Source: an uncultured archaeon (GTDB lineage: Archaea; Halobacteriota; Methanosarcinia; Methanosarcinales; Methanoperedenaceae). Taken from it: a stretch of DNA of 64,000 bases. The translations under genes and the position numbers were made by a program. The stretch is taken from the NCBI GenBank assembly GCA_902386135.1, contig CABMIB010000103.1:1-64000 (forward strand). Reading direction: 5' to 3'. Below are positions 35,206 to 41,218 of the stretch, piece after piece (within the stretch, counting starts at the first letter, position 1; the number at the start of each line of letters is the position of its first letter). Below the pieces are notes generated by a model. That model did not search any database. It worked only from the letters and a program-made list of their open reading frames with translations, and was not told the DNA's origin.

Positions 35206-37017
35206 GTGAACATACGGTCCGAACAAATCCTCTTTTTCCTGATCATATCTGTAATACCGCTATCTATAGTCGTTTACATATCCTATGACTACAGCAAAGA
35301 TGCCATCCGCGACTCGGTGATGGCAAACCTGCTCGGGGCGACCGAAAATACAGGTAATGCGATAGATAACTGGATGGCTGCAAGAGAGGATGATATACGT
35401 GTTATCTCCCAATCCAGAATAATTGCATTCGAAGATAAAGAACAGTCTCGTGAGTACCTGAACACCTTTGAACGCGAACATCAGGGTGTGTATAGTGAAT
35501 TCTTTATACTCGATATGGGAGGGGACATAACACTATCGACTCTTAACCGCACAGGAAATGCCGGTAAAGAACGTTATTTTACCGAAGCTGCCAGAGGAAA
35601 ACTTTACGTGTCCGATGTTTCTGTCTCCGAAATTAATGGTTCTCCTGAAATAATAATAGCTAATCCTATTACAAAAAATGGCACTGTCATAGGGATACTG
35701 GCGGCGAGAGTGAGTCTTGAGAACCTGTACAGGATAATCGAGAAAATCGATATAGGGAGATCCGGGGAAGTATTCATAGTCAATAAGGATGGGAACATCA
35801 TCTTCCACAAAAACAGATCCAAAATCCTGGTTGACAATATCAATAATAATTTTGCAGTTGGAGAAGTGACCTATGAAAAGAACGGGATAAACGAGTACAT
35901 CAACTATAAAGGTGAAAAGGTGCTTGGCTCCTACTACTGGCTGCCGCTTTACAGATGGGGGCTTATAGTAGAGAAGAATATCGACGAAGCGTATGCAGGA
36001 GCCCTGACCTTAGGGCAGCTCATGGTAGGTATATCTTCCCTTGCTATTATCTCCGTCATTTTTCTTGCAATCGTTATCTCACGAAGACTCACAGACCCTA
36101 TAAAATCCCTTGAAGAAGGAGCAGTCGGTCTGGTCAAAGGTGATTTCAAACCGATAAAGGTATCTTCCAGCAATGAGATCGGCCGGCTGACCGAGATATT
36201 CAACAAGACTTCTGCTGAATTGCTGGATATACGAAAAAAACTGGAAGATAAAATCGAAATAGCAAATAAAGACCTGGAGGAGAAAAATAAAAAACTTATT
36301 ACAGCCAATGAAGAATTAAAGCAACTCGATAAACTGAAATCCGATTTTATCTCTCTGGTCTCACACGAGCTCAAGACGCCCCTTTCGTCCATAAGACTGT
36401 CTGCCGAGTGTCTGGAATCCGAAGAAAATATAGACCCCGCCGTACAAAAAGAACTTCTAAAGACGATGATAAGGAACATCGACCGCCAGACACGGTTTAT
36501 CAATGAGATCCTTGACCTGTCAAAGATCGAAGCCGGGAAGATGGAATTCCGGCTGGAACATGCGGACTTTGGTGAAATAGCGAACATGGCTTATGAAAAT
36601 ATCAGACAGCTCGCTTTGAAAAAAAATATAATTGTCTCTCTCGATATTCCGGAAAAACTCTCTCCTGTACTTGCAGATAGGGAAAAGCTTATTATTGTTT
36701 TGAACAATCTCTTCGAAAATGCATTAAAATTCACCTCTGATGGTGGAAGTATCCTTTTATCGGCAAAGGATGATGTGGACAGTATAGAGGTTAAAATGAG
36801 AGATACGGGTGTCGGGATAGAGAAAGAAAAATTAGGAAAGATATTTGAAAAATTTTACCAGGTGGACAGCGCATCCAGCAGAAAAATAGGTGGTTGCGGG
36901 CTTGGGCTCTCAATATCCAGCGGGATAATCAGGGCGCACGGCAGTGAGATCCACGTGGAGAGCGAACCTGAGAAAGGTAGTGTCTTCAGCTTCAGGTTAA
37001 AAAAGGTTGGGTTATGA
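35206..37017 (+). CDS. Membrane sensor histidine kinase (Cache - HAMP - HisKA - HATPase)
   Basis: Residues 8-28 are a first membrane span; residues 30-265 form an extracellular double Cache domain (YFTEAARGKLYVSDV, EVFIVNKDGNIIFH); a second span lies near 268-290; then HAMP, a coiled coil, the phosphoacceptor LVSHELKTPLSSIRL near residue 387, and the ATPase domain (NNLFENALKF, DTGVGI, GCGLGLSI). The GTG at 35206 is taken. No receiver-domain partner is adjacent. The last codon overlaps the ATG of the following substrate-binding-protein gene (ATGA), so both are made together; the binding protein may present a ligand to the Cache domain, which is inference. Confidence 0.93.
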   Translation: MNIRSEQILFFLIISVIPLSIVVYISYDYSKDAIRDSVMANLLGATENTGNAIDNWMAAREDDIRVISQSRIIAFEDKEQSREYLNTFEREHQGVYSEFFILDMGGDITLSTLNRTGNAGKERYFTEAARGKLYVSDVSVSEINGSPEIIIANPITKNGTVIGILAARVSLENLYRIIEKIDIGRSGEVFIVNKDGNIIFHKNRSKILVDNINNNFAVGEVTYEKNGINEYINYKGEKVLGSYYWLPLYRWGLIVEKNIDEAYAGALTLGQLMVGISSLAIISVIFLAIVISRRLTDPIKSLEEGAVGLVKGDFKPIKVSSSNEIGRLTEIFNKTSAELLDIRKKLEDKIEIANKDLEEKNKKLITANEELKQLDKLKSDFISLVSHELKTPLSSIRLSAECLESEENIDPAVQKELLKTMIRNIDRQTRFINEILDLSKIEAGKMEFRLEHADFGEIANMAYENIRQLALKKNIIVSLDIPEKLSPVLADREKLIIVLNNLFENALKFTSDGGSILLSAKDDVDSIEVKMRDTGVGIEKEKLGKIFEKFYQVDSASSRKIGGCGLGLSISSGIIRAHGSEIHVESEPEKGSVFSFRLKKVGL

Positions 37018-38054
37018 AAACTTACGTATATATATTAATAATCGGGCTGGTACTTTCCGGCGGGTTTGTCGCCTATGAGAGCTCCCGCGCCCAAAAGTCA
37101 ATACAAGTTGTATCCATGACAGCAGATGAGATGTCATCGGCGTTAAAGAACGGATCGATTGCAGGTTTTATTTCATGGGAGCCGTATCCTGCAAAGGCGG
37201 TAGTTGATGGTTATGGCAGTTATCTTGTTAATTCTAAAGATGTATGGGAAAACCATCCGTCCTGCGTCCTGGCAATCTCTAAAGACCTCAAAGATGAAGA
37301 TATGATAAAAGCCCTTGTATGGGTACAGCTAAAAGGTACACGATTTATCAATAAGCCGGCGAACAGGGAAAAAGTCTTACAGTACGGTATGGAATTTTCA
37401 GGGCAGGACAGGGCAACGGTCTCGGCTGCTATCAATAACACCATATATATAGAATATCCGGATATAAACCAGACAAAAAAGGGCATAGAGATACTCAGTA
37501 AAGCCGGGGTTCTCAAGAAACCCATAGTTTCAATGGGATATAACGATACGGACGAATTCCTTGCGGGTATTTATCTTGACAAATATTACAAGGAGATACG
37601 GCAAAAGCTGGACAACGATCCTGGCTGGGCTCCGACGGCTGTTAACGGGAGCCTCAGGTTCGGATATATAGAAGGCAATATCCATTACCTTGGAATGTAT
37701 ATAGCCCAGAAAGAGGGTTATTTTGAAAGGGTTGGTCTTAAGCCGGGAAAGAATGTCAGGTTCACTGCGTACAGGAGCGGACGCGCAATAACCGGGGCTT
37801 TCGATAATCGTGATGTGGATGCTGCGACGCTGGGCTCAACTGTACTTTTAAGGTACAGGGTGAACGATAACGGCAGGGTCCATGTGATCAGCGGAGTGAA
37901 CACAGGCGGGACTTCGCTCGTAGTGGGAGCTGATTCCGGTATAAAGTCCGTCAACGACCTGAATGGCAAAAAAATTGCAACCCCGGGTTTCGGTACATGC
38001 CAGGATACCATTATGAGGAAGATGTTTGAAGGTTTTGAAATAAAGACCGTATGA
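37014..38054 (+). CDS. Solute-binding protein of the NMT1/SsuA type with reversed (circularly permuted) halves
   Basis: A signal or anchor span (residues 4-21) is followed by residues 28-190, which match the SECOND half of NitT/TauT-type binding proteins: VVSMTADEMSSALKNGSIAG, FISWEPYPAKAV, NHPSCVLAISKDL. After a linker (PGWAPTAVNG), residues 213-346 match the FIRST half: LRFGYIEGNIHYLGMYIAQK, VISGVNTGGTSLVV, LNGKKIATPGFGTCQD, ending MFEGFEIKTV. The end (EIKTV) and the beginning (IQVVSM) correspond to the same strand of the usual fold, so the order is a clean circular permutation, or a relic of a tandem protein that lost both ends. It is coupled to the histidine kinase and ends five bases before uvrA on the other strand. 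Confidence 0.8.
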   Translation: MKTYVYILIIGLVLSGGFVAYESSRAQKSIQVVSMTADEMSSALKNGSIAGFISWEPYPAKAVVDGYGSYLVNSKDVWENHPSCVLAISKDLKDEDMIKALVWVQLKGTRFINKPANREKVLQYGMEFSGQDRATVSAAINNTIYIEYPDINQTKKGIEILSKAGVLKKPIVSMGYNDTDEFLAGIYLDKYYKEIRQKLDNDPGWAPTAVNGSLRFGYIEGNIHYLGMYIAQKEGYFERVGLKPGKNVRFTAYRSGRAITGAFDNRDVDAATLGSTVLLRYRVNDNGRVHVISGVNTGGTSLVVGADSGIKSVNDLNGKKIATPGFGTCQDTIMRKMFEGFEIKTV

Positions 38055-38058
38055 CCTG

Positions 38059-40875
38059 TTATGGATTAAGGATTTTTTTCAGGTAGTGACCCGTATAAGA
38101 GCCCTCTATCTTTGCAACTTTTTCAGGCGTCCCCTCTGCGATTATCCTGCCGCCGTTATCCCCTCCTTCAGGACCCAGGTCGATTATGTGATCAGCCACC
38201 TTTATTACATCCAGGTTATGCTCTATCACCACAACGCTGTTGCCTGCGTCCACAAGCAGGGAGAGCATATCGAGCAGCTTCTGTATATCCGCGAAATGAA
38301 GCCCTGTCGTCGGCTCATCCAGTATATAGAGCGTCTTTCCCGTGCTCCTTTTACTTAATTCTGTAGATAGCTTGATGCGCTGCGCCTCTCCTCCTGAGAG
38401 GGTCGTGGCAGGCTGCCCGAGCCTTATATATCCGAGTCCCACATCAAAGAGAGTCTGGAGCTGGCGGCTGACCCTCGGGATGTTCTCAAAAAACGCAAGC
38501 GCCTCTTCCACTGTCATGTCCAGCACCTGCGCTACATTCTTGCCCTTGTACGTTATCTCAAGAGTTTCGCTGTTAAAGCGCTTTCCGTGGCAAACCTCGC
38601 ACGGCACATAGACATCAGGCAGGAAGTGCATTTCGATAGTTATGATGCCATCACCCTTGCAGGCTTCGCACCGTCCACCTTTCACGTTGAAGCTGAACCT
38701 ACCGGGCAGGTAGCCCCGCGCCTTTGAGGATGGGAGTTTTGCGAACAGGTCTCTTATCGGGGTAAAAACCCCAGTATACGTGGCCGGGTTTGAGCGCGGC
38801 GTCCTTCCGATAGGGGACTGGTCGATTATTATAATCTTATCTATGTTCTCTGTCCCGATTATACCCCTGTGCTTTCCGGGTCTTTCTTTTGCAAAGTAAA
38901 ATTTCTGCGCCAGTGCCTTGTAAAGGATATCATTCACAAGCGTGCTCTTACCCGAGCCTGATACGCCAGTAACGCATGTCATGACCCCGAGCGGGATGTT
39001 AACATCTATCTGTTTCAGGTTGTTCTCGCCTGCTCCTACAATGGTTATTTTGCCCTTCGGTTTTCTCCGCCGGGACGGCACAGATATCACTTTTTTATGG
39101 CTGAGGTACTTGCCGGTCAGTGAATTTTCACATCTAATGATATCTTCCTGGCTCCCTGTAACCACGACCTCGCCGCCGTGCACTCCTGCGCCGGGTCCCA
39201 TGTCCACGATGAAATCAGCGCTCTGGATCATCTCTTCATCATGCTCGACAACTATCACCGTATTGCCCAGGTCACGCAGTTGCGTTAGCATATGAATCAG
39301 CCTGCCGTTATCCCGCTGGTGGAGCCCGATGCTGGGTTCATCCAGGATGTAGAGCACACCGACAAGACTTGAGCCGATCTGCGTGGCAAGCCGAATCCTC
39401 TGGCTTTCTCCTCCTGAAAGAGTGCCAGCCGCCCTGTCAAGAGTGAGATAATCAAGCCCCACGTCCATCAGGAACCCCAGGCGTGCCCGGAGCTCTTTCA
39501 TAATTGGCTTTGATATTATCGCCTCTTTTTCACTGAAAGTGATAATATCGAGGAATTCCAGCGCCTTTTTCACTGACAGCCGTGTCGTGGCAATAATGGA
39601 TCTATCTGCCACTGTGACCGCAAGGCTTGAGGGTTTCAGGCGCTCGCCGTTGCAAACAGTACACGGTTTGATGCTCATGTACTGCTGTATTTTTTCCCTG
39701 GCTTCTTCGGACTGCGATTCCCTGTACTTCCTTGCCAGGTGGGGTATTATCCCTTCAAAGCTGCTCCAGTGTTCCCAGAGACCTTACTTTTCGCGCGGTA
39801 CATACCTGAAGTGGATCTGTTCCCTGCTGCCGTGCAGCAGCACCTCCACATGTTCCGGTGCAAGTTCCGAGAACGGGATATCAAGCGAGAAACCATAATG
39901 CTTCGCCACGGACTGGAGCATCTGGCTGTAATACCCGTACTCAAAACTCCACGGCTCGATCGCCCCTTTACGTATCGATTTGCTTTTATCCGGGATGATT
40001 AGGTCAGGGTCAAATTCCATTGTGCTCCCGAGTCCCTGGCATGCAGGACATGCGCCCCTGGGGCTGTTGAACGAGAACATATTGGGTTCAAGCGGCTCAA
40101 AACTGATGCCGCATTTTATGCAGGCAGCGTGTTCGCTGAACAGAAGCTCATTGTTTCCGGATACATCCGCCACGACTATCCCGTTCCCTTCTTTAAGCGC
40201 TGTCTCAACCGAATCTGCGAGTCTTTCTTCTATTCCGGGTTTTATTATCAGCCTATCCACGACAACATCGATATCATGTTTCTGCTGTTTATTGAGAGCT
40301 ATCTCTTCGGATAATTCGTACATCTTGCCGTCCACCCGTACGCGGCTGAACCCGGAGTGCGCAAGGTCTTCGAACATCTGTTTGTATTCGCCTTTCCTCT
40401 GCCTGGCAAGAGGAGCAAGCACATGGAGCTTCGTGCCTTCAGGCAGCGCCATGAGCCTCTGCACTATCTGCTCTACGGTCTGCGGGGTTATTTCGCTGCC
40501 GCAGTTGGGGCAGTGCTGCCTGCCTATCCTTGCGTACAGAAGGCGGAGGTAGTCATATATTTCCGTGACCGTGCCGACGGTCGAGCGGGGATTCTTGCTT
40601 GTGGATTTCTGTTCGATGGAGATGGCGGGCGAGAGACCTTCGATATACTCCACATCGGGTTTGTCCATCTGCCCCAAAAACTGGCGGGCATATGCAGACA
40701 GCGACTCAACGTACCTGCGCTGGCCTTCGGCATAGAGCGTGTCAAACGCGAGCGAGGATTTTCCTGAGCCTGAAAGTCCTGTTATCACTATCAGCTTGTT
40801 CCTTGGAAGTTCAAGGTCGATGTTCTTCAGGTTGTGGACGCGGGCGCCTTTTATGATGATTTTATCGGTTGACAT
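38059..40875 (-). pseudogene. uvrA: Excinuclease ABC subunit A interrupted by an in-frame TAA
   Basis: UvrA is the damage-recognition ATPase of nucleotide excision repair. The full 938-codon frame runs from ATG at 40875 to 38059, with both ABC modules ([34 protein letters not shown]), both zinc Cys sets, and signature [12 protein letters not shown] and [12 protein letters not shown]. One TAA at 39786-39784 breaks it after YVPREK; the downstream codons [20 protein letters not shown] continue the family in the same frame, so it is a single nonsense change and not a frameshift. It may be a pseudogene, a strain variant, a base error or a read-through site. Confidence 0.9.
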
Positions 40876-40957: not shown

Positions 40958-41218
40958 TTATTTTTTATATATCTTATCGTGATGGTCTAAATCAAGAAAT
41001 TTCACTGTGTCATTTTCAACCTTAAAAATGAGTACAAATGACTTTGCAATATGAACTCGCCGTATATTTTTCATATCGTGCCGCAGAGGTTTGTACTGTT
41101 CGGGATTATTGACAATCTCTTCAATTTTCCTCATGCAGATATCGTAACGCTTCTTATCTTTTTTATATAATTTTTTAAGCATTTCTTGAAGTTTCTCTTC
41201 TATAAGAATCTTGTACAT
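40958..41218 (-). CDS. RelE/ParE-type toxin
   Basis: The 86-residue product is basic, with the RelE-fold pattern: KKLYKKDKKRYDICMRKIEEIVNNPEQYKPLRHDMKNIRRVHI is the helix pair and strand, and FVLIFKVENDTVKFLDLDHHDKIY the C-terminal strands with late His-Asp residues. This is the archaeal RelE/YoeB-like mRNA interferase group. The antitoxin gene ends 13 bases upstream, the usual antitoxin-toxin order. Confidence 0.85.
   Translation of the reverse strand: MYKILIEEKLQEMLKKLYKKDKKRYDICMRKIEEIVNNPEQYKPLRHDMKNIRRVHIAKSFVLIFKVENDTVKFLDLDHHDKIYKK

Follow-up and report, generated by a model that had tools for sequence, protein, structure and literature searches.

The protein encoded at 37014-38054 of the analysed stretch, a 64,000-nucleotide contig segment that we call the window, is probably a functional, membrane-tethered, circularly permuted type II solute-binding protein from a branch derived from ABC transport proteins, and it likely acts as a co-receptor that docks on the dCache domain of the sensor kinase encoded beside it. 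The source genome (G000) is Candidatus Methanoperedens-like, with M. nitroreducens and other Methanoperedens MAGs as its nearest named relatives. The positions of the binding protein, its parts and the kinase are collected in Table 1.

Table 1. Features of the permuted binding-protein gene and the kinase gene in the window (residues are those of the binding protein).
Feature	Positions	Strand	Details and basis
Permuted NMT1/SsuA-type solute-binding protein, kinase-linked class A	37014..38054	+	346 aa
N-terminal hydrophobic anchor, residues 3-23	37020..37082	+	helix 3-23 in AlphaFold2 model; lipobox Cys absent
C-half (normally second), residues 28-194, with WEPYPAKAV and W..NHPSC	37095..37595	+	NMT1_2 151-249; half-HMM match 30-193
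Strand at the new N-terminus, next to the permutation cut, residues 29-34	37098..37115	+	AlphaFold2 and rotated alignment
Linker from old C-terminus to old N-terminus, residues 195-212	37596..37649	+	gap between half-HMM matches
N-half (normally first), residues 213-346, LRFGYIEGN ... GKKIATPGFGTCQD ... EIKTV	37650..38051	+	NMT1 2-116, NMT1_2 7-126; half-HMM match 213-345
Strand at the new C-terminus, next to the permutation cut, residues 342-345	38037..38048	+	AlphaFold2 and rotated alignment
Sensor histidine kinase	35206..37017	+	603 aa; profile matches below
Kinase dCache_1	35302-35973	+	7e-29
Kinase HAMP	36073-36225	+	
Kinase HisKA	36337-36537	+	
Kinase HATPase_c	36676-37005	+	
ATGA overlap of kinase TGA stop and binding-protein ATG	37014..37017	+	sequence

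The reversed order of the halves was first noticed in a sequence-only reading of the window, and profile, PDB and rotation tests all agree with it. Aligned separately to the family profiles, each half matches on its own: residues 27-123 align to positions 151-249 of the 252 in Pfam NMT1_2, in the second half of that profile, and residues 223-342 align to positions 2-116 of the 216 in NMT1, in its first half. NMT1_2 is also matched in its first half (7-126), by the last 137 residues. Relatives in the PDB cover one half each, the second halves of NrtA and CmpA aligning to residues 30-124 and the first halves of TauA and SsuA to residues 213-337. Scored whole, the protein belongs to the family (E-values of 1.3e-21 for NMT1_2, 3.7e-13 for NMT1 and 3.4e-24 for SsuA_fam), and by profile both halves are of the same family as NrtA, CmpA, TauA and SaoX (NCBIfam TIGR01728, SsuA_fam), but it lacks the N-half to C-half order that is standard for the NMT1/SsuA type (type II, cluster F). 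It is filed here as a permuted variant of that type without standard membership. As in other natural permutants, the whole domain is present, its termini are moved and there is no net loss. The permuted proteins score below the SsuA_fam and SaoX cut-offs, a search of the PDB found no solved structure with the permuted order, and in the plasmid collection no place covers at least 80% of the query, the best matches falling into two pieces. An assembly or gene-calling artefact is ruled out by single open frames in dozens of genomes.

A test HMM was built from normal-order homologues of the same phylum, and the mature window protein was rotated and rescored against it. The best single domain rose from 68.5 bits as found to 144.9 bits, with the best offset at 145-160 of the mature protein. 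ABC-linked relatives rotated in the same way rose from 75.6 to 145.8 bits and from 99.0 to 203.9 bits, and in the reciprocal test a normal protein rotated onto a permuted HMM rose from 111.7 to 217.7 bits. The gain is far beyond chance, and since the window protein, its ABC-linked relatives and the reciprocal test all show it, the permutation is real. The rotated alignment spans HMM 38-294 of 340 with nothing lost at the cut, which it crosses with one gap; no segment is duplicated, and the ends abut at HMM 176/177. The breakpoint is near-identical in all permuted groups (HMM 176-182) and lies just ahead of the first strand of the C-half; EIKTV, at the C-terminus, aligns to the loop ahead of that strand and IQVVSM, near the N-terminus, to the strand itself. 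The two termini had been taken for one and the same strand, which did not hold, as they abut without duplication, although AlphaFold2 nonetheless predicts short strands at both ends. Structure prediction, a check proposed with that reading, gave these strands and the anchor helix in a model of moderate quality (pLDDT 76, pTM 0.74); the model of class B, the ABC-linked form described below, was too poor for use. Foldseek returned no match of the window model to the PDB at E<=0.001, the sequential aligner being unsuited to a permuted query.

A whole-genome search found 35 full-length copies of class A in this order in 26 genomes, window copy and source genome included; 24 of these genomes belong to the genus and 2 to a second family. 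The remaining copies are 56-88% identical to the window protein, and a paralogue at 62% identity lies on contig C81 of the source genome. In a comparison with the nearest orthologue (in G008), the C-half has a dN/dS of 0.22, the N-half of 0.17, the kinase of 0.12 and the short anchor of 0.54. Purifying selection acts on both halves, and the conserved order together with low dN/dS leads us to conclude that this is a maintained gene. A working circular permutation, one of two explanations offered from the sequence, is thus upheld by the conserved order, the dN/dS of about 0.2 in both halves and the one breakpoint in all groups.

The kinase is a nearly constant neighbour of class A. A stable linkage to a Cache kinase had been predicted, and in 19 of 20 neighbourhoods a histidine kinase homologous to that of the window (dCache_1, HAMP, HisKA, HATPase_c) lies directly upstream, its end falling -46 to +9 bases from the binding-protein start as called. 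The ATGA overlap with the kinase stop was also correctly read, and about half of the related loci share this -4 gap. In 16 of the 20 neighbourhoods the kinase is preceded by an HTH-REC response regulator, which usually has a MarR-like wHTH protein of ~100 aa ahead of it, the usual class A operon being wHTH, response regulator, kinase, binding protein. No response regulator is adjacent to the window copy, where uvrC is divergent just upstream and uvrA convergent downstream. The genes are LuxPQ-like in arrangement, with a binding protein beside a kinase that has an extracytoplasmic sensor, conserved across genomes. Distances among the kinases and among the binding proteins are correlated (r = 0.86; best of 1000 shuffles 0.25), a tree congruence that is expected from linkage alone. 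RNA folding at the gene junction gave no signal (z 0.11). The kinase is missing at three loci with a binding protein (L088, L089 and L096), so the pairing is not absolute; at one of them (L089:3920-5960) a wHTH gene and a response-regulator gene are followed by the binding-protein gene, and no kinase gene stands between them.

Two further observations concern the flank of the window locus. The uvrA gene (38059-40875, minus strand) carries one in-frame TAA at 39784-39786, and in a relative the ~90% identical UvrA is intact at 938 aa; the TAA is either a real nonsense mutation or a MAG error. Upstream of uvrA, a small ORF of 86 aa (40958-41218, minus strand) looks RelE-like by eye.

The permuted order is shared by a much wider family. 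Class B, found in the source genome (L053) and at the other Methanoperedenaceae loci fetched, is a lipoprotein with the same C-N order followed by a permease and an ATPase, except at L065, which has no intact permease ORF. A full-length permuted binding protein with the same ABC operon occurs in six family-level groups of the phylum (f9, f15, f17, f30, f32 and f34), longer-linker permuted forms with an ABC operon in four (f16, f19, f25 and f26), and Methanomassiliicoccales also carry a permuted binding protein and ABC operon. Because these ABC-importer proteins share both order and breakpoint, the permutation is not kinase-specific, and the idea that it evolved for kinase coupling is ruled out by ABC-linked relatives of the same order. 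Many other archaea have normal-order homologues with the same motifs, and the source genome, too, has NMT1_2 proteins of normal order. Two other features recur or stand out at the ABC loci: an HTH_3 (Cro/C1-type) regulator of ~160-180 aa beside permuted ABC operons (L053:5300-5815, L145:921-1397 and L128:7737-8270, all on the minus strand), and a normal-order NMT1_2 protein of 292 aa immediately ahead of the genes for a permuted binding protein and its ABC partners (L142:534-1412).

In a tree of 81 proteins rotated to a common order (quick method), the short-linker permuted sequences group together (support 100), as do the long-linker ones (99), and class A is one clade (100) nested in the ABC-linked permuted clade. 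It joins sequences of f9, f30, f32 and f34, not the class B of its own genome, with moderate support (86). Judged from these sequences, the kinase-linked copies are a derived branch of a broad family of archaeal binding proteins that serve ABC importers. A single clade of all permuted sequences was not rejected (p-AU 0.54); a single ancient permutation is the simplest reading, and two independent permutations at the same point are a possible alternative.

The N-termini differ between these branches. A lipobox was found in none of 12 class A proteins, in 8/8 of class B, in 18/23 other short-linker permuted proteins of the phylum and in 10/11 long-linker ones; the five permuted proteins of Methanomassiliicoccales are also without a lipobox, and their hydrophobic anchor is strong. 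Class A, a branch found in Methanoperedens and related ANME-2 archaea, retains a hydrophobic N-terminal stretch, and membrane tethering of the window protein, as proposed from the sequence, is supported by its anchor at residues 3-23. No permease or ATPase follows class A in any neighbourhood examined, so these are not ABC-importer operons. The missing transporter, the missing lipobox and the near-constant kinase neighbour together suggest that a transport lipoprotein was converted into a membrane-tethered sensory protein.

Alternatively, the window protein could be an ordinary import protein and supply an ABC permease from another locus, such as that of the class B transporter, the kinase being a regulatory coincidence or a sensor of transport state. 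Its close homologues do work with ABC importers, a permuted ABC system is present in the same genome and kinase-less copies occur, but class A forms its own clade, only 28-32% identical to class B, and the absence of transporter genes and the near-constant kinase adjacency described above make this explanation unlikely. Somewhat less probable still is that the protein has lost ligand binding and persists as an inhibitor or accessory subunit of the kinase. The loss of the transporter partner and the long class A branch (0.95 changes per column) would fit such a role, but the core motifs that it has in common with the transport family (WEP, W..HP, N, D and G.G..Q) do not vary within either class A or class B.

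The second explanation offered from the sequence was a tandem protein that had lost its outer halves. Searching for tandems, as that reading proposed, found no N-C-N-C relative and one C-N-C-N tandem, a 709-aa protein in a Methanomassiliicoccales-like MAG (L130:3846-5975), whose first unit has lost several motifs and whose inner N1-C2 is, to Pfam, an NMT1_2 domain in normal order. It appears to have arisen later, by duplication of a unit that was permuted already. Circular permutation is classically explained by duplication and subsequent trimming, and the L130 protein shows how these steps could interconvert both half orders; an ancient duplication is a possible source of the whole permuted family. 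That the window copy is a non-functional remnant of an N-C-N-C tandem that recently lost its outer halves is, despite this standard route and the existence of one tandem, most improbable and is ruled out by conservation and selection: the order is fixed across dozens of species and more than 10 family-level groups, an additional C-terminal half is seen in no relative, and homologues in the normal order belong to families of their own.

Returning to the co-receptor reading, LuxP-LuxQ is a system in which a kinase takes a binding protein as input, and the periplasmic domain of LuxQ is Cache-like. By analogy with such kinases, the window protein would present a ligand to the dCache domain. It would close on a small ligand while held at the membrane by its own anchor, dock on the extracytoplasmic dCache domain and thereby change kinase activity, as LuxP does for LuxQ. 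Because the anchor leads into the second half instead of the first, the protein may dock in another geometry than ordinary tethered binding proteins do. There is precedent for sensory binding proteins encoded beside kinases (PMC11113362) and, in AioX, for a binding protein as kinase input (PMC5908839). In the window system, as in LuxP-LuxQ, AioX-AioS and TorT-TorS, the gene for a binding protein adjoins that for a membrane kinase whose sensor domain is extracytoplasmic. The window system differs in being archaeal and permuted and in having an anchor helix of its own at the N-terminus.

Profiles place the permuted family near the SsuA/SaoX/Nrt/Tau group, with no cut-off reached. In one subgroup (L205:2-6759, also L148 and L150-L153), the permuted binding protein, permease and ATPase stand in an operon with genes for a URO-D-type methyltransferase, a corrinoid (B12-binding) protein, a RACo activase and an MtrH-like methyltransferase. 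This operon resembles the four parts of MtoABCD, the demethoxylation system of Archaeoglobus and Methermicoccus (PMC8359953, PMC8630106), but has an ABC importer where that system has an MFS transporter. As a lead for the L205-type subgroup only, the analogy points to a methylated or methoxylated compound as a candidate ligand.

Natural permutation has been described in other binding proteins. Tp0684 (TpMglB-2) of Treponema pallidum is a permuted type I protein, proposed as 'Type Ic / Cluster Bc', that still binds ligand and changes conformation (PMC4990184). It shares with the window family a natural permutation, an N-terminal membrane tether and a family-wide topology; however, Tp0684 is bacterial, of type I with a sugar ligand, and cut within the N lobe, whereas the window family is archaeal, matches type II NMT1 profiles, is cut before the first C-half strand and has one kinase-linked branch, and so falls outside that class. 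Among type II binding proteins, OpuAC is related by circular permutation to ProX, molybdate-binding proteins and CysB, a family found by CPSARST (PMC2395249). Those betaine and molybdate binders share <24% identity and are related deeply, at the level of structure, whereas the permutation described here is visible by sequence inside the NMT1/SsuA family. We found no report in the open-licence literature of a permuted NMT1/SsuA-type family in archaea or coupled to a kinase, and nothing relevant there on Methanoperedens kinases.

Since the family profiles give two partial matches in the wrong order, annotation may miss or misname such proteins. With permutants recognisable by sequence, normal-order relatives in the same genomes and one breakpoint, the family is good material for asking why permutations persist, the tether of a two-lobed clamp here leading into the other half while transport partners are retained. 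We propose, with the case for and against about evenly balanced, an archaeal 'type IIc' class in which one ancient permutation moved the anchor to the other half, which still serves ABC importers and which was recruited once in Methanoperedens/ANME-2 as the ligand co-receptor of a Cache kinase, giving an archaeal binding-protein-dependent two-component system. In anaerobic methane-oxidising archaea, the kinase-linked branch is a candidate for a sensory system that depends on a binding protein.
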